Source: Methylothermaceae bacterium (GTDB lineage Bacteria; Pseudomonadota; Gammaproteobacteria; Methylococcales; Methylothermaceae). Taken from it: a DNA stretch of 40,834 bases. The DNA is taken from contig JALSIB010000049.1 of the NCBI GenBank assembly GCA_026981855.1, positions 1 through 40,834 of the forward strand, written 5' to 3'. A model generated the notes under the pieces. That model was not told the origin of the DNA, searched no databases, and saw nothing but the letters and a program-made list of their open reading frames with translations. Below are positions 6,247 through 40,725 of this stretch, piece after piece. Numbering within the stretch: the stretch's first letter is position 1; each line of letters begins with the position of its first letter. A program made the translations under genes and the position numbers.

Positions 6247-6837
6247 ATGCAGATATCTTCCCGGCTCCTGTTGCTCGCTGTCCTGGGAATGCACGGTTGC
6301 GCCTGGCTCATCCCGGACCGGGAGAAGGAATACCTGAGCGTTCAGCCCTTGCCCCCTCTCAAGCTGCCGCCGGATCTCCTCGAAACCCACCCCCCTTCCC
6401 TGGAAGAGATCAAGCCGCCCGCCGCCATTCCCTCCAAGGCACCCTCCGTTCCGCTCACCGGGGTGACGGACACCTCCGCTCCCTACATCGATCTGCCGCA
6501 TCCTTTTCCCCGGGCATGGAGCAAAGTGCTCAAGGCGCTCAACCAACAGGCCGTCGAGATCACCGAAATGGACGCGGACAGGGGATTGATAGACATCATC
6601 CACAGCAGTACCGGGCAAGAACTCGGCCAGGACCAGGGACTGTGGGAAGATCTGCTCTACTTCTTCACCGGGAAAGGCAAACTGCACGAACGGGCATATC
6701 AGCTTCTGTTGGTACCTGTCGCAGATCACACCCGGCTCTTCATTCTCGATGAAAAGGGCGATCCCGTCGATGACCCTCAATCCCTGCAACTGCTGCAGGA
6801 TCTCAAGAAAACGCTGGCATCCCGGAACGACTCATGA
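6247..6837 (+). CDS. bamC: BamC/NlpB-like outer-membrane assembly lipoprotein
   Basis: 196 residues. A short signal peptide ends at the lipobox LGMHGC, with Cys18 the likely lipidated residue. A Pro-rich unstructured stretch follows (about 30-75), like the region of BamC that wraps BamD, and then one helix-grip-like domain containing [17 protein letters not shown] and GLIDIIH. E. coli BamC has 344 residues and two such domains, so this is a short form. The family call rests on these features and on its place directly after dapA. The start at 6247 was chosen because upstream in-frame codons overlap dapA. Its TGA overlaps the purL ATG. Confidence 0.75.
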
Positions 6838-17544: not shown

Positions 17545-17955
17545 GCGAGAGACGGCCGGGCAACCGCGCCCGCATGGCGGGTGAGGAAAGTCCGGGCTCC
17601 ACAGGGCAGGGTGCCAGGTAACGCCTGGGCATCGCGAGATGACGGAAAGTGCCACAGAAAACAAACCGCCGATGGTCTGGTCACCTCCTGCAGATGGCAG
17701 ACGCCATAAGCGGGTGTTCGCAGGTGACCCGGCACAGGCAAGGGTGAAACGGTGCGGTAAGAGCGCACCGCGCGGCTGGCAACAGTCCGCGGCACGGTAA
17801 ACCCCACCCGGAGCAAGATCAAATAGGGGAACCTGGAGCAATCCAGCGCGTGGCCCGCGCGCCGTTCCCGGGTAGATCGCTAAAGGCATGCGGCGACGCA
17901 TGTCTCAGACGAATGGTTGTCCTCGACAGAACCCGGCTTACAGGCCGTCTCTCCC
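17545..17955 (+). ncRNA. rnpB: RNase P RNA, bacterial type A
   Basis: The catalytic RNA that matures tRNA 5' ends. The 5' conserved region GAGGAAAGTCCGGGCTCC follows at about 17582, AAACCGCCGATGG and GGTAAGAGCGCACCGCG lie inside, and ACAGAACCCGGCTTA occurs near 17930. The terminal P1 helix is explicit: GAGAGACGGCC (17547-17557) pairs with GGCCGTCTCTC (17943-17953). The fragment GCAAGATCAAATAGGGGAACC matches the type A core. No T-run terminator follows; the true 3' end is probably just after P1. Confidence 0.97.
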
Positions 17956-18032
17956 CCTCATCGCCTCCTTTGTGATCTACACTTAAGGGGACTTTCGTTT
18001 CAGGTTTTCAACGCGTCCCAAGGAGTTTTCCC

Positions 18033-29796: not shown

Positions 29797-31782
<1,986 letters not shown>

Positions 31783-31895: not shown

Positions 31896-32886
31896 TCCCT
31901 TAACCGCCTACACGGCGGTACACTCTCCGCCCCGACCAGGCCGTAGGGTCCGGCACTTCTTAACCGCCTACACGGCGGTACACACACCCCGCCCAGCGCG
32001 GGGTTTTTTTGTACCTCTTCTTAACCGCCTACACGGCGGTACACACACCCCGCCCAGCGCGGGGTTTTTTTGTACCTCTTCTTAACCGCCTACACGGCGG
32101 TACACCACTCCGGCAGCCTGAGCTTGTTGCGGATGTACTTCTTAACCGCCTACACGGCGGTACACATCCACCCTCAAGGCCGATGAACGCGTTTTCCGCT
32201 TCTTAACCGCCTACACGGCGGTACACTCAGGAAATCAGCGTCAGCGTCAAAAATAATTCTTCTTAACCGCCTACACGGCGGTACACCTTGCGATGAAGCT
32301 GGTCCTCTATACCCTGTTCTTCTTAACCGCCTACACGGCGGTACACTACCAGGCGGAATTGGGGATGTTTCGGGCGCTCTTCTTAACCGCCTACACGGCG
32401 GTACACGGGGAGGCAGTCGGGGAGACTGAGGGGGGTTGCTTCTTAACCGCCTACACGGCGGTACACGCACTCCCCCAGGGCACTTTCATCTACAATATCT
32501 TCTTAACCGCCTACACGGCGGTACACGTCTGGGAAATCCGATCCGCTCTCTTTTTTGACTTCTTAACCGCCTACACGGCGGTACACTGTAGCGCCATTCC
32601 CTAACGCACCAACAGACGCTTCTTAACCGCCTACACGGCGGTACACATTGCAGCCCGCATCATCAATACCTCAAAAAACTTCTTAACCGCCTACACGGCG
32701 GTACACAACTTTCACAGCCCGTCAAAGCTGCCGCATAACTTCTTAACCGCCTACACGGCGGTACACCTCCCGCATACGCTCCGGCAAAGCGTATGCTACT
32801 TCTTAACCGCCTACACGGCGGTACACACTCGAAGGACGGATAGCTGAACTCGAAGGACCTTCTTAACCGCCTACACGGCGGTACAC
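31896..32886 (-). CRISPR. type I-F CRISPR array, 17 repeats and 16 spacers
   Basis: Repeats are 28 bp. On the crRNA (minus) strand they read GTGTACCGCCGTGTAGG then CGGTTAAGAAG, with hairpin ACCGCC-GTGTA-GGCGGT and predicted 5' handle TTAAGAAG, the I-F layout cut by Cas6f. Spacers are 32 nt, three of them 33, giving a 60-61 bp period. Repeat starts on the plus strand: 31896, 31956, 32017, 32078, 32138, 32199, 32259, then every 60 to 32859. The repeat at 31896 differs at its first three bases, marking the leader-distal end. The spacers at 31984-32016 and 32045-32077 are identical. The leader is on the right, beside cas1. Confidence 0.99.
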
Positions 32887-32991
32887 CGCGTCAAACTAAC
32901 ACTTATCACACAAATATCAATAGCTTACAGTTCGCCCTGTAAATTTAGGATCATTTACTCAAAAAATTATAATACATTGATTTATAAAAAA
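32887..32991 (-). promoter_or_regulatory. CRISPR leader with two IHF consensus sites
   Basis: This AT-rich 105-bp stretch between the newest repeat and the cas1 stop is the leader, given repeat orientation. Two exact matches to WATCAANNNNTTR occur: TATCAATAGCTTA at 32915-32927 (plus) and AATCAATGTATTA at 32970-32982 (minus). IHF bending of the leader is required for I-F spacer integration in characterised systems. A TATAAT on the minus strand overlaps the distal site; the pre-crRNA promoter is otherwise unclear. Confidence 0.75.
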
Positions 32992-33924
32992 TTATTTGGC
33001 CGCCTTCTCAAGTATCCCAAACAGATAATCTAACACATCAAGTCGTTGAGCCCTGTCGATCAATGCCGCACGGAACTCATTGTCCTTGGCCTTCTTCCTG
33101 CCATACTCGAAGGCGAGAGGCATGACGAGTCCATCCTTGACCAAATCCGCCACATCGAAAACGAGCGCCCCACGTCTCGTCTTGCCGTGCAACACCGGCA
33201 GTGAGTACGGAATACCAAGACCATGCAGGGCAACAGCCGCATAACCGTAGGCGATGTAGTTGCCATGATCCAGAAAGGAATTGACCGCCTCGGCAGGCGT
33301 TCCCTTCATACGTTTGCCTTCGATCCGTGAAAAACGGTCGACATGGTAATGTTGGGCAAGAACCGCATAAAGGCGCTTGGCCAAGTGAGCTTCCCTCGAG
33401 AGAAGCTCCTGCACATTCCGGGCCTGACCAAGCGAGTCAATGAGCGTATCGGACACCTGATCAGGCCAAGGCAACTGCTCTTTCTGCCAAACCTGACGAT
33501 TCCAGGTAATCCGCTCGCGGAGAAAAAAAGCCGCCATATCGAGCCGCCTTCCTTCATCCAGCCACATCCGCATCCATGCCTGGGCATACTCTGTCGGACG
33601 GTATTCATCCTGCGGCGTGATGAAAGCCAGGTCGAGCGCCCCAAACATGGGTGAACCACCGGAACCGCAAAATCCAATAACCACATTGGACTCGGCCAGC
33701 TTTCTCACCGCCGCATCGGTGATGGAGCTGCCTTTGCCCAACAATACCATCGCGGTGTTTTTGTCCGGAATGTTGACGACTTGAAGCAACTCACCACCGC
33801 CTTTCTCTGTCAGGTAAACCACCCGCTCGTCCTTTTGCACCACGCGCACATGCTCCAGATAAAACACGTTGGCACGCTTGGAAAGCATGACCGCGGCGGG
33901 ACGGCGTTCGCGCTTCGTCGACAT
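32992..33924 (-). CDS. cas1: Cas1 integrase, subtype I-F
   Basis: 310 residues from ATG 33924. Metal ligands match Cas1: Glu178 in SREAHLAKRLYAVLA, His246 in LPVLHGKTRRG, and Asp257/Asp260 in ALVFDVADLV. The N-terminal beta domain begins with SKRANVFYLEHVRVV, as in I-F Cas1. The ATG overlaps the cas6f TGA by one base (TGATG), with GGAGG 4 bases upstream; a GTG at 33927 is the alternative. Cas1 with Cas2-3 integrates new spacers. Its position, last in the csy operon and next to the array, is unusual: I-F loci normally place cas1 before cas2-3. Confidence 0.97.
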   Translation of the reverse strand: MSTKRERRPAAVMLSKRANVFYLEHVRVVQKDERVVYLTEKGGGELLQVVNIPDKNTAMVLLGKGSSITDAAVRKLAESNVVIGFCGSGGSPMFGALDLAFITPQDEYRPTEYAQAWMRMWLDEGRRLDMAAFFLRERITWNRQVWQKEQLPWPDQVSDTLIDSLGQARNVQELLSREAHLAKRLYAVLAQHYHVDRFSRIEGKRMKGTPAEAVNSFLDHGNYIAYGYAAVALHGLGIPYSLPVLHGKTRRGALVFDVADLVKDGLVMPLAFEYGRKKAKDNEFRAALIDRAQRLDVLDYLFGILEKAAK

Positions 33925-34499
33925 CACTCCTCCAAAATGATCGGCAAAGCCACGATGCTCGAACGCCGCGACAAACCGTAGGCATCAGGTCCCCCCTGCT
34001 CCACACAATCTACCACACAGCGTTCGATATGCAGCCAGAAGGTTCTCCCGGTGCTTCGACTCCTTACCCGCACGAACGGCAAAGCCTGGGATTGCGCCAA
34101 ACGTTTGCGCCGCAAGGTCGCTTGTTTCTCCTCATACTCAGGATTGCCCCGCCGTTTGGCGGACAGCCGTTTTCCAGGAATCCGGAAGCGCCGGTAACAT
34201 TCATACCCTGCCGGTGCTTCGGGAATGGGCTTCATACGCCTGAAAGCCACCAAATCGTCGATTCCCTCCCGATCCATCAAAGCATCCATTGCTTCCCCCA
34301 ACCTTTCCCCCTCTTCACCAAACACCCGGACAAGATCGCCCAGGCCAGGCAATACGAGCATCCGCGGGAAAGCGACCGCCAGCCGATGACCGCCGGCGAT
34401 CACTTCATGAAGATATCCCATGATACGCTCTGTCTTTTCTGGAAGCGGCATATTTCCATCCCGGCGCAGGCGCATATCGAAATAGCAGGTGGGAATCAT
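33924..34499 (-). CDS. cas6f: Cas6f (Csy4) crRNA endoribonuclease
   Basis: 191 residues, as expected for Csy4. It cleaves pre-crRNA after the repeat hairpin and stays bound to the 3' stem-loop. The catalytic His is His31 in GYLHEVIAGG, and RSRSTGRTFWLHI corresponds to the RSxSTG segment containing the active-site Ser. The Arg-rich helix FRIPGKRLSAKRRGN and LRRKRLAQSQALPF fits the hairpin-binding region. It overlaps csy3 by 4 bases (ATGA) and cas1 by 1. Confidence 0.96.
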   Translation of the reverse strand: MIPTCYFDMRLRRDGNMPLPEKTERIMGYLHEVIAGGHRLAVAFPRMLVLPGLGDLVRVFGEEGERLGEAMDALMDREGIDDLVAFRRMKPIPEAPAGYECYRRFRIPGKRLSAKRRGNPEYEEKQATLRRKRLAQSQALPFVRVRSRSTGRTFWLHIERCVVDCVEQGGPDAYGLSRRSSIVALPIILEE

Positions 34500-35581
34500 C
34501 CTGCCGCCTCCTTTTTCTTGGCTTTGTTTTTCCCTGAATCCTTGTCTTTCTCAGAGAAAACACCTCCACGCAAGAAGATCGCCAGGAGAAACATCGCCTC
34601 CGGGTTGAGCGTACCATTTCCGGGTTGCAGCGCATCCATCCGCCGCATGATCTCGAAAGCGGAATTGGCCCCCTTACGGTAAAAGTCGTTATCCTTGAGA
34701 GAAGCACCGTTTGGCTCAACCGGGATGGGATCGGGATCGGGCTCGTCCCGATACCAGGTATCGATAGTGCGGATGGCGTTACCGATTTTCTGATCCCGCA
34801 GCGCGGCGGTTCCCATCTCGATCATATCCGCACGGTAATGGGCAACATCCGCTGAATTCAGAATATTCCCCAACTCCCGGCGTCCGATCATATTGAGCTT
34901 GTAAAGCGGACGAGCAAATCCATCGGGTTTTTTGCCACCAGGATAGTTCTGAGAGGGAAAGACCTCCACGGCTCCCTGGAAACCGAATTCGATCCTTCCC
35001 TCGATTTCAAAACGCTGCGAGCTCAACCCCCGGATCGCCTCGGCGAAAGCCAGGGCAAGTTTGCGCTCGCTTTCCGTATAGTCGCCAAAGCGTTTAAGCT
35101 CGGGCACCGCCTTGGTTTCGACAAGGGTTTGCCCCTTGCTGGCTACTGTAATGCGGATCACTTGAGCCAGTATCCGGTTACGCCACAGCCAACGTCCGTT
35201 CAAGACGTTTCTGGCATAGCGGTGGCAAACTTCTTCCAGTTCTCCGGAATCGCGGAAACGCTCCACAAAGTCCAGGAAATGCTGTCTGAACGCCATGTCC
35301 GAAGTCGCAAACAAAGTTTCATCCAAGGGCACGAACCCCATGGAGAAACGCACCACGATACCCGTCGCATTCGGCGGTGTCTTGGCGGATTCGGTGATCT
35401 GCACGTTGGCAATCTCTGTGCCTTTATCAACACGCTTTCGTTCCTGGACGTTGATCGTGCCTCGAATCCCATGACGTACCACAGGAATAAAGCGTTCACC
35501 CTCCGGCGTAATCGCCCAAAACGGCGCGTCGGTACACAACACTCCACGCTGAAAGGAAAGAACCTCAGGCAGTTTGGTCAT
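34496..35581 (-). CDS. csy3: Cas7f (Csy3) backbone subunit
   Basis: 361 residues (342 in Pseudomonas). Six copies form the crRNA-binding backbone of the Csy surveillance complex. LPEVLSFQRGVLCTDAPFWA is a typical Csy3 start; HRYARNVLNGRWLWRN and FPSQNYPGGKKPDGFARPLY are conserved blocks. The C-terminal ~20 residues are Lys-rich (SEKDKDSGKNKAKKK) and look like an added tail. It overlaps cas6f by 4 bases and starts 9 bases after csy2. Confidence 0.96.
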   Translation of the reverse strand: MTKLPEVLSFQRGVLCTDAPFWAITPEGERFIPVVRHGIRGTINVQERKRVDKGTEIANVQITESAKTPPNATGIVVRFSMGFVPLDETLFATSDMAFRQHFLDFVERFRDSGELEEVCHRYARNVLNGRWLWRNRILAQVIRITVASKGQTLVETKAVPELKRFGDYTESERKLALAFAEAIRGLSSQRFEIEGRIEFGFQGAVEVFPSQNYPGGKKPDGFARPLYKLNMIGRRELGNILNSADVAHYRADMIEMGTAALRDQKIGNAIRTIDTWYRDEPDPDPIPVEPNGASLKDNDFYRKGANSAFEIMRRMDALQPGNGTLNPEAMFLLAIFLRGGVFSEKDKDSGKNKAKKKEAAG

Positions 35582-35590
35582 ACTTTTCTC

Positions 35591-36430
35591 CTATGCAGAT
35601 TGATGAACGACGAACAAACGATCATGCCTCCAGCGGTAACGCCACAGGGGAAGCGCCCCCCCTTCCTCGAGGCGTTGTCTGATTTTTCCCAAAGAGACAT
35701 AGCGGACCAGGCCGATGGCGTTGTCGGCATAAGCGTGCAACAATGTTTCGCCTGTCTTTGGATGCCTGCGAGTGCCTGACCTGGGCTCAAAAGACGAAAT
35801 CACCGAAAACCCAAGATTGACAGGAACCAGCCACTCACCTTCCCCACGAGTCAACACTGCCGTGATTGGGTCCATGCCCTGCTTTCGGCGCTGTTCGACC
35901 ACATCCATGGCCTCTTCGACCCAATAACCTCCGTGAATTCGGTGCAGAGCTTCCGCAAGCGTTTCATGCACACTTGGTTTCCCGAAGTGGGTAATCACCC
36001 CGCCTGCAAGGCGCAGATGGCGTAGTTGTCTTTCAACTTTGGCCATGTTGGGTGAAGTCACACGCAGCACGAGGGAAAGCTCGAGGTGCGAGGTCATGGT
36101 GGGCTGGATGGCCAAACCTTGAGGACGTTTATTGGTACTCGCGTAATCGGTGGTCGCTGAGCGTTCCCCGATCCAGGAAGCCCCCCGGAATTGGACTGGC
36201 GAAACATTGAGCCATGTCCGCTCTCGCCCCTCGCGTACCCACCAATCCATAATGGGTTCTGCCCGCTGATGGACGATACCTACCCCATCGACTAGGGTAT
36301 CCGAACGTTTCCCAAGCGCATGGGCTGCCATGACCGCGGCGAATACCGGAGCAGGTGCGTAAAGATAGGGCGCCTGCAGCATGTTGGCACGCTGCACGTG
36401 CAGATTGGGAATGACAAGGAAAACACTCAT
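35591..36430 (-). CDS. csy2: Cas5f (Csy2) subunit
   Basis: 279 residues, shorter than the ~327 of the Pseudomonas protein. Csy2 caps the crRNA 5' handle together with Csy1. Conserved parts are VIPNLHVQRANMLQAPYLY, VMAAHALGKR and GVGIVHQRAEP near the N-terminus, and the C-terminal ALPLWRYRWRHDRLF. Overlaps csy1 by 4 bases. The start MSVFLVIPN matches the family, so the shortness comes from internal loops and not from truncation. Confidence 0.95.
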   Translation of the reverse strand: MSVFLVIPNLHVQRANMLQAPYLYAPAPVFAAVMAAHALGKRSDTLVDGVGIVHQRAEPIMDWWVREGRERTWLNVSPVQFRGASWIGERSATTDYASTNKRPQGLAIQPTMTSHLELSLVLRVTSPNMAKVERQLRHLRLAGGVITHFGKPSVHETLAEALHRIHGGYWVEEAMDVVEQRRKQGMDPITAVLTRGEGEWLVPVNLGFSVISSFEPRSGTRRHPKTGETLLHAYADNAIGLVRYVSLGKIRQRLEEGGALPLWRYRWRHDRLFVVHQSA

Positions 36431-37758
36431 AGTAGTTCCTCCAGCAAGCCAGAGATCACCTTCGTAAGCCGTTGATGGTCAATATCCGCAAGTGCCAGCG
36501 TTTCGTCATTTCCAAAGCGGAAATCGTTAAGACGGTTTAGGATCTCCGTTGCCAATTGCCCCCCTGCCTCAATCTCCCAAACCCCGGTAATGACCGCCCG
36601 CGTCAATGGGTCTTTGGCGTTGAGAAACTCCAAACGCCAACCGTCCCCGGTTCGGAACGAATCATCGAGCAAGTCGCCATGTTCAGTGGCCAATTCGCAA
36701 ATCGCTTCGTGCTTCGCCCGCAAGGATGCGACTACCTGAACGATCAATGGTCGAAGCGCTCTCTTTTCCAGCTGACGCCCACGCAGGGTGTCCTCTTCAG
36801 TCCAACCGGGATGTTTTTGACGCCAGTCTCGATACAAGCGGACCAGATCGCGTTCAAGCCGAATCCGGACCTTGCCGTGGAGCACACCCAGCGACTCCCG
36901 TATCTCCCTGTCCACGGTTGGGACTTCAAAAAGCAATGGGGAACGGATGGCCTGAGTGTGAATCATGGTGTTCTGAGGATTGGCACCCCCCACAGGGAAG
37001 TTGTCTACGTTTACCCAGCTCGGTCTTTCGATACCTTCCACCTGTTCGGCAATCAGCTTGCACAATCCAGGAGAAGCAAGCGGCGTCAGCACGACATAAC
37101 CTTCGTCGCGGGGAACGGCGATCTGACGAAGACGGGGATCGACCCGATCAAGATGGCATAACTCGTAACCTGTCGTCTCCTGGATGCGCTGAAACGCCAT
37201 TCGAATCGTTGCCGCTTCTTCCTCCGGGAGGTTCGCTTTGGCCTGTCCATCGGATTGGACGACGGAAAGCAACGCTTGATAACGCCCTGTATTGTCGTTC
37301 TTGGTCTGGTCGAGAGGTATCTCAAAGCCATTGGCGATTAAGGTAGCGGCACACAGGTAGGGACTATCCATGCCTGCCAGCTTCCCTAAACGAACCCCGC
37401 CTTCCGCGGCGTTACTATGCACTGGCTTGGTGGTGAAATGGGCGGCGTATTCCGTGATGATTTGATTGACGCGAGTCTCGATAATCTCCTTGGATACCAA
37501 GGGTTGAATGGCCGCACGCGCCGCCTCGAGCAGTTCGTCGGCGTCAAGACGGGTATCCAGCCCCGCCAAAGCCTCTGCAAGGTCAGCCTCCCGTCCCCCG
37601 GCACATTTGAGCCGCCCCCCTATATCAGGATGCTTCCAAAGAAGCTTCATAACGACGGTCTTTTCGTCCTTTCTCAAGAGATTGAAATAATCCCTGGACG
37701 ACAGGCCAGCGAGTTTTCTCCAGGCCTCATATTTTTCCTTTAGTTGTTCCTGTGTCAT
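36427..37758 (-). CDS. csy1: Cas8f (Csy1) large subunit
   Basis: 443 residues, normal for Csy1. It recognises the PAM and, with Csy2, the 5' handle of the crRNA. Signatures are VGGANPQNTMIHTQAI (family GGxxPQN motif), LRPLIVQVVASLR, and the C-terminal helical domain ending VISGLLEELL. ATG 37758 was chosen: GGGAG lies 6 bases upstream, while the longer frame needs a TTG. First gene of the leftward operon csy1-csy2-csy3-cas6f-cas1, all overlapping or nearly so. Confidence 0.95.
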   Translation of the reverse strand: MTQEQLKEKYEAWRKLAGLSSRDYFNLLRKDEKTVVMKLLWKHPDIGGRLKCAGGREADLAEALAGLDTRLDADELLEAARAAIQPLVSKEIIETRVNQIITEYAAHFTTKPVHSNAAEGGVRLGKLAGMDSPYLCAATLIANGFEIPLDQTKNDNTGRYQALLSVVQSDGQAKANLPEEEAATIRMAFQRIQETTGYELCHLDRVDPRLRQIAVPRDEGYVVLTPLASPGLCKLIAEQVEGIERPSWVNVDNFPVGGANPQNTMIHTQAIRSPLLFEVPTVDREIRESLGVLHGKVRIRLERDLVRLYRDWRQKHPGWTEEDTLRGRQLEKRALRPLIVQVVASLRAKHEAICELATEHGDLLDDSFRTGDGWRLEFLNAKDPLTRAVITGVWEIEAGGQLATEILNRLNDFRFGNDETLALADIDHQRLTKVISGLLEELL

Positions 37759-37822
37759 GCCACGCTCCCATTCCAATTTTTGACTTATACTAAGCGCACT
37801 CCCAAATATAAGTAAATCCCAT

Positions 37823-37845
37823 ATAACGATTATTATGATCGTTAT
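37823..37845. promoter_or_regulatory. 23-bp palindrome in the divergent cas promoter region
   Basis: Perfect 8-bp arms ATAACGAT and ATCGTTAT flank TATTATG. It lies 65 bases upstream of csy1 and 28 bases upstream of the WYL gene, in AT-rich DNA unlike the flanking genes. A dimeric winged-helix WYL protein would bind such an inverted repeat, so this is the best candidate operator for control of both transcripts. Confidence 0.6.
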
Positions 37846-37873
37846 TATTTATTTAACTTTAAAATCAAACAAA

Positions 37874-38710
37874 ATGATTGAAAAAAACAAAAAAACACTA
37901 TTCGTACTTCGCCGGGCCTTCTGGATTGGTAGAACAACCAGCCACGACGTGGCCACGGCTTTCGATGTCTCCGAAGCCACGGCCAGGAGAATCCTGGCGC
38001 AGGCGGTCGATGCCTGCCCTCAGTGGCTGGAGCGCATAGGACGCAGCGGGGTGTTCCCGCGCCCTGGTATTCCGATCCCCAGGGAGGCTTCCGCCGACAC
38101 CATGCTGGAGTTGTTCGAACAGAATGTACCTTTTGAGACGTGCGGGCTACGCCCCGAAGAAGTGGGTATTATTCGTTCGTCTTATCCCCCACCCAGCCGT
38201 CCCGTACGCGGACTGGAAGTGATCCTGGAGGCACTCATCGTTATCCATGGAGGAGAGAAAAGGCGTCCGAGACCTTTGGAAATCTTCTACGTGGGAATGA
38301 AACGGGGCGACCAGGCACGCTGGCGTACGGTCTTCTGCAATGCCCTTGAATATGATGGGTGCAAGTGGTATCTCCTCGCCCAGGATCTCGATGAGCGCGA
38401 GAAAGCTTATCCCCAAAAGGTTTATGCCCTTTCCCGCATACTCGATGCACGTCGTTCGTCGAGACGTTTACCAAGAAATTTCAAGCCATCCTCAGTGATT
38501 GGAAGAAAAGTGGGATTACGCCTTTTCCTCGACGAGCATCTCACCGCAGATCAGCGGAAAGCCTTGGAAAACGAACTAGGCATGCAGGGCGGCAAGATTT
38601 TTCTTCCGGAATACGAGGTATTCGCTTTTCGGCGTAACTATTGCGGCGATACGGAAGGCATGCACCGCATCATTTGGCCTCCCGTGGCGGACTGGCGCGA
38701 GGAAAAGTAA
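37874..38710 (+). CDS. WYL-domain transcriptional regulator (BrxR/CapW-like)
   Basis: 278 residues. N-terminal winged helix with recognition helix in SHDVATAFDVSEATARRILAQ (about 23-43). The WYL core is in the middle: FYVGMKRGDQARWRT, then GCKWYLLAQDLDE with the Trp-Tyr-Leu triad, then KVYALSRILDARR. A C-terminal WCX-like part follows. Size and order fit BrxR/CapW repressors that guard defence loci and respond to a ligand bound by WYL. ATG 37874 was chosen because the earlier ATG at 37835 lies inside the palindrome. Its TAA shares one base with the cas2-3 ATG (TAATG), so it is coupled to the nuclease. Confidence 0.85.
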   Translation: MIEKNKKTLFVLRRAFWIGRTTSHDVATAFDVSEATARRILAQAVDACPQWLERIGRSGVFPRPGIPIPREASADTMLELFEQNVPFETCGLRPEEVGIIRSSYPPPSRPVRGLEVILEALIVIHGGEKRRPRPLEIFYVGMKRGDQARWRTVFCNALEYDGCKWYLLAQDLDEREKAYPQKVYALSRILDARRSSRRLPRNFKPSSVIGRKVGLRLFLDEHLTADQRKALENELGMQGGKIFLPEYEVFAFRRNYCGDTEGMHRIIWPPVADWREEK

Positions 38711-40725
38711 TGTTCATCACGATCGTATCTCACTCCGAGGGCAAGGCACGTCGCCGTGCTCATACGCTTATCGACCGCTATGCCACCCGCATCGGCGATA
38801 ATGTATGGACGACACCGATCACCAAGGAGGCGCTTACGGAACTCCTGCGCGCCTTACGACGCGGTGCAAGCCGGCGCACCGCCATCGCGGTGTACCGCAA
38901 CCGTGGTTACAGCCGCCAGGAACTCATTGCACTCATCGGTAACCGCAATCGCTACGATAAGTACGGACGCTTCGCCCTGGGAAGCTCACAAAAGCCCCGC
39001 CCCTGGCCCCTGGCCCTACGCCACATTGCCCTGCTGGCCGGGGCAGGCGGTCTTTCCCATGATCTTGGCAAGGCCAACCAGCGCTTCCAGGAAAAACTCC
39101 TGGACGCCACAAAACCTCAAAAGGATGCCATTCGCCACGAGTGGATTTCCGCCTGGTTGCTCGCTCACGGACAATTGGACGATGACGATGTCCTCCAAGC
39201 AGCCTGGCACGCTTTCGCGCGTGAGGGCCTGTACGAACTCAAGGATCACTGGTTGCCCTGGCAAGGGATGCGGAGCGGTTTGGATGCGCTACGCTTCTTG
39301 GTGGCCACCCATCACCGGCTGTTCGGCCCTGCCAGTAAAGCCAAAGGCGGCCTGCCTTCATTGGAGGCTTCCCGGCATGTGCAGCCAGAACTCGACAGCC
39401 GGAATGCCCGATGTGCGATCCCCGACAAGGAATGGGCCCAGTGGCGCAACCTGATCGGCAAGCTGCACCGCAAACTGAAACGTCTCGAAAACATCGGCCA
39501 TCGTGACCCCGAAGCCTATTGGACGGCCTGCGCCCTCATTGCGCGCGCCGCCCTCGTGCTGGCAGATCATGAGGTGTCGATGCGCGAATACCAAGGGAAG
39601 ACTGCTAGCCAGGTATTTGCCAATAGCAAAAGGAAGGAAGAAAAAGTCACCCGGACAATCACCAAAGCTGGTCGCAAAAAAACCCGCCCGGAAACGATCG
39701 AAAAATCCGTGGGCAATCAACCACTGACTTGGCACCTGCAAGAAGTCTCCAACGTGGCTGAAACTTATGTGCCACGTTTCTTTGCTCAAGATCTGCCCGC
39801 GCTCGATCTACTGCGCCTCGAAAGCCTGCTCACCCCTGCTGATCCCGATTCTCCTTTCGCCTGGCAGGATAAAGCCTGTGAATTTCTGCGGGGGGCGGAT
39901 CGACCTACCCTCGTCTTTAATGTCGCAGCCACAGGTTCGGGCAAAACCCGGGCAAACGCCAAGATGATCGCCGCTCTACGCGAGGGACAACCCGTACGTT
40001 TCACCGCCGCTTTCAATCTTCGCATCCTGACGTTGCAAACCCACCGGGCTTATCTCGATGAACTTGGTCTGGACGAAACCGAATGTGTCTGCGTCATCGG
40101 CGACGCACTCGCCAGGACTGTCTTCAACACCCTTGCCTGTGACGATGAGGAACAAATCGAGGAGGATGTGGAAACCACGGGCTTCGAAATGAGCGACCTA
40201 CCCCACTGGCTTATCGAGATGGATAAGAAACACAAGAAAAACGCCCGGAAACTGATCGGCCCGCCAGTGCTGGTCTCGACCGCGGATTATCTGGTGGCCT
40301 GCGGGGAGCCGGGGCGCCAGGCATACCACGCCATTGCCATGTTACGCGCAGCCAGCTCGGATCTGATTCTGGATGAAGCCGACTCCTTCGATGTCGATTC
40401 CCTGGTGGCTTTGCTGCGGACCATCACCATTTTTGCCATGTTCGGGCGTCATGTCGTGGTCTCGAGCGCCACCCTGGCCCCTCCTTTGGCCGAGGCGATT
40501 CACGCTACCTATCGCAACGGCATCCGCCTACGGGCAGCCCTATTCGATGAACCGGCTTATCAAGTCGTGGCTGTCAGCGATGGCCTCGATCCCGAAGCCT
40601 TGGATAGAGAAAATGCCGGGGAAGCCTTCCGCCGCTATTGTCACAAGATGAATCACCGGCAACAACCGGTGACCAAGCGCTTCGAAATTATCAAGACGCC
40701 GGAGATTCTGTTAGCGGAACAGTAA
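38710..40725 (+). CDS. cas3: Cas2-3 fusion (I-F), truncated after helicase motif III
   Basis: 671 residues against about 1,080 for I-F Cas2-3. Cas2 domain at 1-~95 (MFITIVSHSE, WTTPITKEAL). HD nuclease from ~100: GLSHDLGK (His117, Asp118), RHEW (His143), ATHHRL (His201-202), ADHE (Asp286-His287). Helicase first RecA half: Walker A ATGSGKT (407-413), DEAD box LILDEADSFD (552-561), motif III SSAT (585-588). The frame stops soon after, without motifs IV-VI and the C-terminal domain. The last five residues (LLAEQ) probably come from the inserted IS end. Interference should fail unless the rest is supplied; Cas2 might still support adaptation. Confidence 0.9.
   Translation: MFITIVSHSEGKARRRAHTLIDRYATRIGDNVWTTPITKEALTELLRALRRGASRRTAIAVYRNRGYSRQELIALIGNRNRYDKYGRFALGSSQKPRPWPLALRHIALLAGAGGLSHDLGKANQRFQEKLLDATKPQKDAIRHEWISAWLLAHGQLDDDDVLQAAWHAFAREGLYELKDHWLPWQGMRSGLDALRFLVATHHRLFGPASKAKGGLPSLEASRHVQPELDSRNARCAIPDKEWAQWRNLIGKLHRKLKRLENIGHRDPEAYWTACALIARAALVLADHEVSMREYQGKTASQVFANSKRKEEKVTRTITKAGRKKTRPETIEKSVGNQPLTWHLQEVSNVAETYVPRFFAQDLPALDLLRLESLLTPADPDSPFAWQDKACEFLRGADRPTLVFNVAATGSGKTRANAKMIAALREGQPVRFTAAFNLRILTLQTHRAYLDELGLDETECVCVIGDALARTVFNTLACDDEEQIEEDVETTGFEMSDLPHWLIEMDKKHKKNARKLIGPPVLVSTADYLVACGEPGRQAYHAIAMLRAASSDLILDEADSFDVDSLVALLRTITIFAMFGRHVVVSSATLAPPLAEAIHATYRNGIRLRAALFDEPAYQVVAVSDGLDPEALDRENAGEAFRRYCHKMNHRQQPVTKRFEIIKTPEILLAEQ

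Follow-up and report, generated by a model that had tools for sequence, protein, structure and literature searches.

A BrxR/CapW-type WYL gene coupled to cas2-3 in a rearranged type I-F CRISPR-Cas lineage, and its alternation with mini-CRISPR units

Type I-F1 CRISPR (clustered regularly interspaced short palindromic repeats)-Cas systems of the Yersinia/Pseudomonas type carry cas1, cas2-3, csy1, csy2, csy3 and cas6f in one direction, and are characterized by Cas1f, a Cas2-3 fusion, the proteins Csy1, Csy2, Csy3 and Cas6f, 28-nt repeats and 32–33-nt spacers. Type I-F2 (I-Fv) has no Cas8f (Csy1), and the Tn7-like type I-F3 has a cas8/5 fusion and neither cas1 nor cas2-3. Among regulators of defense genes, BrxR and CapW are WYL-family repressors known from BREX, CBASS and other systems; a passage in PMC13373217 states that CapW/BrxR represses until it binds single-stranded DNA (ssDNA). 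CreR consists of degenerate repeats around one spacer with a limited match to DNA upstream of its own cas genes, and is named for types I-B, I-E and V-A in one excerpt (PMC13131331) and for type I in general in another (PMC12737573). Here we describe a type I-F locus in a stretch of 40,834 nucleotides from a Methylothermaceae bacterium (GenBank assembly GCA_026981855.1, contig JALSIB010000049.1; the whole stretch is referred to as the window), in which a BrxR/CapW-type WYL gene is coupled to cas2-3 and divergent from csy1. We propose, with a probability of about 0.6, that the WYL protein represses the operon that encodes it, and probably also the divergent csy genes, at a site that is held elsewhere by a CreR-like mini-CRISPR.

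In the window, csy1-csy2-csy3-cas6f-cas1 run leftward into the CRISPR array, and the WYL gene and cas2-3 run rightward. The WYL gene (37874–38710, forward strand; start of the longest open reading frame (ORF) at 37835) overlaps the cas2-3 start ATG at 38710 by one base (TAATG; gap −1). The layout given in the initial annotation agrees with the coordinates. A divergent region of 115 bases (37759–37873), the presumed home of both promoters, separates the WYL gene from csy1. Unlike type I-F1, cas1 is located behind cas6f, cas2-3 lies on the other strand and faces csy1 with the WYL gene between them, Cas8f and Cas5f are divergent in sequence, and Csy3 falls in a separate clade; the canonical one-directional order is absent. 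The gene products nonetheless place the locus in type I-F. Family assignments are strong for Cas1f (32992–33927, reverse strand; TIGR03637, 361 bits against a cut-off of 150), Cas6f (Csy4; 33924–34499, reverse; PF09618 and TIGR02563), Csy3 (Cas7f; 34496–35581, reverse; TIGR02566, 208.8 bits against a cut-off of 157.55), and the Cas2 part of Cas2-3. The divergent Csy2 (Cas5f; 35591–36430, reverse) is matched by the PADLOC Cas5f profile (1e-23) and passes the cut-off of Pfam but not that of NCBIfam (TIGR02565, 51.8 bits). The divergent Csy1 (Cas8f; 36427–37758, reverse; longest ORF start 37776) is matched by a single PADLOC Cas8f profile (2.4e-20), and Pfam and NCBIfam give nothing; a profile built from 14 Cas8f sequences of the clade described below does match solved Csy1 proteins, at best with 1.5e-10. 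These 14 are matched by the PADLOC Cas8f models in all 14 cases, by the Pfam Csy1 model in nine and by NCBIfam in two. The cas2-3 gene (38710–40708, forward, about 666 codons) encodes Cas2 fused to Cas3 (PF21384, 1e-17; TIGR02562 positions 1–684 of 1110), ends inside the helicase part and, being truncated, scores below the TIGR02562 cut-off.

The distribution of this layout was examined by scanning 84,980 species genomes with an alignment of Csy3 from the window and from four plasmids. This gave 79 loci, the best 80 of the 84 matches being retained; because it relied on two short Csy3 peptides, the scan favors this clade. Genes were mapped in 84 sources, i.e., the 79 scan loci, the four plasmids and the window. 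In the Csy3 tree, a quick reconstruction with several long branches and its root placed on the canonical rows, 58 loci (the window, L042–L097 and L109) form one clade against 26 canonical loci, with a Shimodaira–Hasegawa-like approximate likelihood ratio test (SH-aLRT) support of 100. Both the genome search and the tree had been suggested in the initial annotation. Within the clade, cas1 is directly behind cas6f in 45 of the 48 loci with both genes, as against 0 of 18 canonical loci with both, and cas2-3 faces csy1 in 48 of the 55 in which both of these are present. The exceptions include L054, L064, L065, L080 and L092, in which cas2-3 precedes csy1 and shares its strand, L081 and L109, which are arranged differently again, and L085, with cas1 beside cas2-3. 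A recent rearrangement private to this strain is ruled out, the layout being clade-wide; the locus belongs to an old, horizontally spread I-F lineage with cas1 behind cas6f and cas2-3 facing csy1 across a short shared region. Gene order in type I-F is more variable than had been assumed, including among canonical-type loci (L103, L105, L106). In Photobacterium lutimaris (L089, 3–7597), the WYL-cas2-3/csy locus lacks cas1 after cas6f and has a second cas1-cas2-3 pair next to it. In two Pseudomonas plasmid loci (L045, L096), degenerate repeats are numerous upstream of csy1, and the stretch covered contains no cas1.

An unbiased sample of 398 genomes, 28 of them with Csy3, indicated that the clade is rare in random sampling, the window's own genome being its sole representative among the 28. 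Seven low-scoring Csy3 loci of this sample had been predicted in advance to belong to the rearranged clade, and the prediction failed for all seven (0/7). Four have a csy2-like ORF of 650–709 aa and are I-F3-like, L156 has the canonical order, and L158 is covered in part. The seventh, L159, shows another gene order, csy1...cas6f-cas1-cas2-3 on one strand.

A WYL gene between csy1 and cas2-3, on the cas2-3 strand, is present in 20 of the 58 clade loci, all in one clade, and an additional WYL locus was found in the viral collection (L126). The gene is split over two frames in L067, and L048 has no cas2-3 in the covered stretch. The gap between the WYL gene and cas2-3 is −10 to +11 nt in 18 of 19 loci; the odd one out is L089, where the first 108 profile positions of cas2-3 are unmatched and the start is unsure. 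Distances among the WYL proteins track those of Csy3 (r 0.82), Cas2-3 (0.80), Cas8f (0.82) and Csy2 (0.80) over 18 loci, and none of 2000 permutations was as high. In about a third of the clade loci, the WYL gene is a long-standing component, and the placement of cas2-3 behind its own WYL gene on the other strand, as described in the initial annotation, recurs in this old clade.

For the single WYL protein of the window, the calls are weak (PADLOC 1.3e-4; Pfam 0.0041, below the cut-off), while the family profile gives firm matches in the PDB to CapW (1.9e-17) and BrxR (6.6e-13) along nearly the whole chain, aligning CapW residues 12–247 of 299. The structure model (pLDDT 88.8, pTM 0.66) superimposes on CapW 7tb6 (Z 14.0; root-mean-square deviation (rmsd) 4.3 over 259 residues), on the CapW-ssDNA structure 9c5g (Z 13.9; rmsd 3.7 over 254 residues), and on BrxR 7qfz (Z 13.7; rmsd 4.0 over 245 residues). 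The BrxR/CapW make-up of a winged helix, a WYL domain and a C-terminal extension is seen in both profile and model. By profile and predicted fold, then, the gene encodes a winged-helix WYL protein of the BrxR/CapW type, the type originally assigned to it. It resembles these repressors along the chain and in its coupling to a defense gene; the difference is that the partner here is a type I-F cas2-3.

Many clade loci without a WYL gene have a mini-CRISPR in the upstream region of csy1, with a spacer that partly matches this same region beside a CC protospacer adjacent motif (PAM). The spacers are 20–38 nt long, and a scan with a fixed spacing of 58–62 nt misses most of them. Thirteen mini-CRISPRs were selected by repeat similarity alone. 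In all 13, the best CC-PAM match near the locus was upstream of csy1 (12–18 of 17–19 positions, seed run 5–12); elsewhere in the locus the same spacers reached 10–12 at best, despite 12 to 20 times more sites tried, with near and far matches tied at 12 in L042. A strict automatic scan gave scores of at least 18 in 17 clade loci, 16 of which exceeded all 30 shuffles, L042 being matched by 2 of 30. A relaxed rule, which is noisy in that shuffles reach up to 24, adds L045, L056 and L057, giving 20 of 51 clade loci with a mini-CRISPR. The 51 are the 58 less the five same-strand loci, L066 (no cas8f) and L081, and include L109 (not head to head) as well as L048 and L062 (no cas2-3 covered). Relaxed scores without a convincing repeat were not counted (L046, a WYL locus, 18; L043, 18; the viral loci L127, 19, and L128, 24), nor was L085 (16/19 by hand), and L125 is the viral-collection copy of L056. 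None of 52 cas2-3 coding windows used as a control reached 18 (highest 15), and strict scores in the WYL loci did not exceed 13. The csy1/WYL region of the window contains no repeat-like element or mini-CRISPR, its best score of 13–14 being within the shuffle range. In an Acinetobacter plasmid locus (L044), a KilAC-domain ORF (6458–6775) lies between the site matched by the mini-CRISPR and csy1.

In type I-F CRISPR RNA (crRNA), every sixth base is flipped out. When positions 6, 12 and 18 were omitted, the 13 repeat-picked units had a mean best match of 12.62 of 15, compared with 10.85–11.31 for the other five phases; their shuffled spacers gave 8.6–8.8 in every phase. Over 36 units, the sixth-base phase gave 13.25 versus 11.56–11.78. 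When every position is given equal weight, 13 of these units match at position 6 and 8 at position 12, as against 30 to 36 at the neighboring positions 5, 7, 11 and 13. The 36 were taken from 42 units (20 clade, 20 canonical, L085 and L105) by dropping six, mostly near-duplicates; most had been selected with a score blind to positions 6, 12 and 18, and the result held when the 13 repeat-picked units were retested. Because plain duplication would not give such sparing of every sixth base, the pattern is strong sequence evidence that the Csy complex reads the mini-CRISPRs. Pairing weakens after about position 17, which would fit binding without full activation. The mini-CRISPRs of these relatives have the anatomy of CreR, with a spacer matching the region upstream of their own cas operon, and by analogy they may repress a promoter there; the matched sites are presumed, from where they lie, to be promoters. 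Unlike the CreR reports, the units occur in type I-F and show the six-base pattern.

The same two elements are found in canonical I-F1. Among 35 co-directional loci (those not co-directional or incomplete were left out), 20 have a mini-CRISPR unit between cas2-3 and csy1 (L164, L165, L166, L168, L177, L179, L180 and 13 of L098–L124), five have a WYL gene, ten have neither and none has both. The units were tested on the first repeat and the seed, and 19 exceeded all 30 of their own shuffles (L119 did not). Mini-CRISPR units are possibly a general feature of type I-F. The canonical WYL genes (L156, L163, L172, L173, L175) precede cas1 on the same strand, at distances of about 40 to 730 nt; three of the five proteins have the Pfam domains HTH_11, WYL and WCX, and the two with WYL only score best against the clade WYL family. 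Seventeen of the 35 loci come from the unbiased sample, and the remaining 18, many of them related Gilliamella, from the peptide scan. The 17 divide into seven with a mini-CRISPR, five with WYL, five with neither and none with both (Fisher 0.044), so that a WYL regulator is not special to the rearranged layout. The region upstream of cas1 in 20 canonical loci gave scores of 23 in L105 and 20 in L110, the latter at a site that adjoins the repeat and looks artefactual. In L105, a canonical-type locus in which the cas1-cas2-3 pair and csy1 are divergent, a mini-CRISPR-like unit with a self-match (15/19, seed 8) is present. The 51 clade loci comprise 20 with WYL, 20 with a mini-CRISPR and 11 with neither. 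Combined, the 86 loci have 25 WYL genes, 40 mini-CRISPRs, no case of both and 21 of neither, a distribution with a raw Fisher value of 3e-9, although related loci cannot be counted as independent.

In the mechanism proposed, the WYL protein would bind the 115-base divergent region and repress cas2-3 and probably the csy genes, keeping Cas2-3 and the Csy complex low until released by a ligand, probably ssDNA as reported for CapW, which might arise from infection, damage or the action of Cas3. In many other I-F loci, the mini-CRISPR crRNA would direct the Csy complex, through limited complementarity, to the DNA upstream of csy1. The same promoter would be controlled in either of two ways, with the mini-CRISPR sensing free Csy complex and the WYL protein sensing ssDNA. 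Of the separate control of cas2-3 put forward in the initial annotation, the placement of the gene behind a WYL gene of its own is borne out; a WYL protein at the divergent region may affect both transcripts rather than that of cas2-3 only. More tentatively, and at somewhat less than even odds, the csy promoter of all type I-F systems would be under one of two interchangeable self-sensing devices, with lineages switching between RNA-guided and protein-guided control and the WYL-cas2-3 lineage as one outcome.

Several observations weigh against this proposal. The mutual exclusivity rests on few independent switches (one pair on well-supported branches, seven on all), 11 of the 51 clade loci have neither device, and the intergenic gaps of the WYL loci are short, leaving hardly any space for a mini-CRISPR, so that part of the exclusivity may be a matter of room. 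No operator or inverted repeat common to the WYL/csy1 regions is apparent. An 8-bp inverted repeat with a 7-bp spacer (37823–37845), a possible WYL site in the window, is not better than chance (10 of 40 shuffles as good), and among the 20 WYL loci only L094 exceeded all 40 shuffles, as did L086, which has no WYL gene. A search for shared k-mers and dyads in 17 WYL regions (the 20 less the broken L067 and the near-duplicates L048 and L074) gave no motif, only words resembling ribosome-binding sites standing out. A sigma-70 consensus scan returned a single weak site for the window, where chance alone would give 0.7, and no site for L050, and consensus promoter scanning was uninformative in the window, L079 and L050. 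Finally, WYL proteins can also activate, as do DriD and PafBC.

The first group of these observations, together with the 21 of 86 loci that have neither device, would be accommodated if the alternation were an artefact of shared descent and gap length with no functional substitution. The recurrence of the pattern in canonical I-F1, on a branch separate from the clade, speaks against this explanation, and we regard it as rather unlikely, though it deserves serious weight. The last observation raises the possibility that the WYL protein activates the promoter of cas2-3, that of the csy genes or both, and that, like DriD and PafBC, it is switched on by ssDNA in DNA damage or infection. Both occur among the fold matches, the C-terminal domain of DriD taken alone fits better (rmsd 2.6 over 86 and 6.2 over 141 residues), and activator genes co-transcribed with their targets are common. 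However, the closest proteins by profile and by full-length fold are the repressors CapW and BrxR, and DriD and PafBC rank lower, with whole-chain rmsd values of at least 13 (8.3 for PafBC 6sj9), which makes activation unlikely.

The tight spacing of the WYL gene and cas2-3 would also suit a post-translational partner of Cas2-3 or the Csy complex, the coupling then serving stoichiometry, for which WYL1 of the Cas13d (VI-D) system is a precedent according to a passage in PMC9122588. Such a role is improbable: the helical N-terminal part aligns to the winged helix of the DNA-binding CapW and BrxR, with the match extending along the chain, and 38 of the 58 clade loci have no WYL gene. A passenger without a role in the CRISPR locus, as might be suspected from BrxR-like genes being common in defense islands (an excerpt of PMC9122601) and from matches to the WYL family profile somewhere in 68 of the 398 sampled genomes, is very hard to reconcile with the same place, strand and coupling in 20 loci and with distances that track Csy3 and Cas2-3.

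With respect to the known subtypes, type I-F2 is ruled out by the profile-matched, divergent cas8f, which is clade-wide, and type I-F3 by separate csy1 and csy2 genes and the presence of cas1 and cas2-3. The closest counterpart is the Acinetobacter I-Fa cluster. A passage in PMC8825777 lists that of ATCC 19606 as Cas1, Cas6, Csy3, Csy2 and Cas3 and says that Csy1 is missing; excerpts of PMC9428484 and PMC11035748 give 197 of 689 CRISPR-positive A. baumannii genomes as I-F2 and I-Fa in 7 of 8 A. calcoaceticus genomes, respectively. Related loci in A. calcoaceticus DSM 30006 (L077) and on the A. baumannii plasmid p1DB053 (L043) have the same gene set and the rearranged layout, including a cas8f of 388 aa, which in p1DB053 is annotated as hypothetical only. 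They differ in that the Acinetobacter loci examined have no WYL gene and several carry mini-CRISPRs. From these related loci, ATCC 19606 itself not being among them, we infer that Acinetobacter I-Fa is this lineage with csy1 overlooked. The initial annotation did not recognize the arrangement as a described I-F variant; without WYL, the layout appears to be already known in kind. For the WYL-cas2-3 coupling, no paper was found in the open-licence literature, and in the portions of reviews where "WYL" stands beside I-F terms it occurs merely in reference lists or a figure key. The parts worth following are this coupling and the alternation with a Csy-read mini-CRISPR.

The strain itself has a real but broken copy of this recurrent I-F variant. 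The cas2-3 gene is present as annotated, but it is not intact to 40725: a sequence of 126 bases begins at 40709 and runs to the contig end (40709–40834), and the last codons of the reported ORF belong to it. The same stretch is 100% identical at the end of contig C27 and 98% identical 28 bases from the start of contig C26, and is the end of an inserted repeated element, probably an insertion sequence, at which the assembly breaks; we take its ends to resemble the IS21 type. The missing C-terminal part of Cas2-3 was not detected in the 60-contig, 2.75-Mb assembly (99.15% complete) with either a Cas3f profile or the C-terminal 443 residues of a relative. The C-terminal half of the helicase is lost or unassembled in this strain, and therefore interference, i.e., target destruction, is probably off.

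The array (31896–32886, reverse strand) has 16 exact 28-nt repeats and one degenerate copy at its distal (left) end, away from cas1; the repeats have the leftward orientation of the csy operon. The AT-rich segment between array and cas1 (32887–32991, reverse) is presumed from position and sequence to be the leader. Two adjacent identical 33-nt spacers (31984–32077) contain a terminator-like hairpin and a T run, and no further copy was found in the same assembly at up to three mismatches. Searched against the phage collection, the only one for which this was done, the array gave no match. As self-guides the 15 spacers are not notable, the best reaching 10/19 in the csy1/WYL region. Contig C40 of the same genome (L009, L010, L132) has a weaker Cas1 match and a weak Cas3-like match, a hint of a second CRISPR-Cas system. 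The window also includes an ordinary thiamine pyrophosphate (TPP) riboswitch (29798–29901) and bacterial RNase P RNA (17548–17956).

For Acinetobacter, where I-Fa has been reported as lacking csy1 or as I-F2, the results suggest that these systems have a divergent csy1, which would alter both their classification and their use. If the proposal is true, the mini-CRISPR device would sense the free, uninhibited Csy complex, and hence anti-CRISPRs, and the WYL repressor would sense ssDNA. The I-F loci would then offer two natural answers, in the same place, to the problem of keeping costly and self-dangerous nucleases low and yet responsive to phages and anti-CRISPRs.

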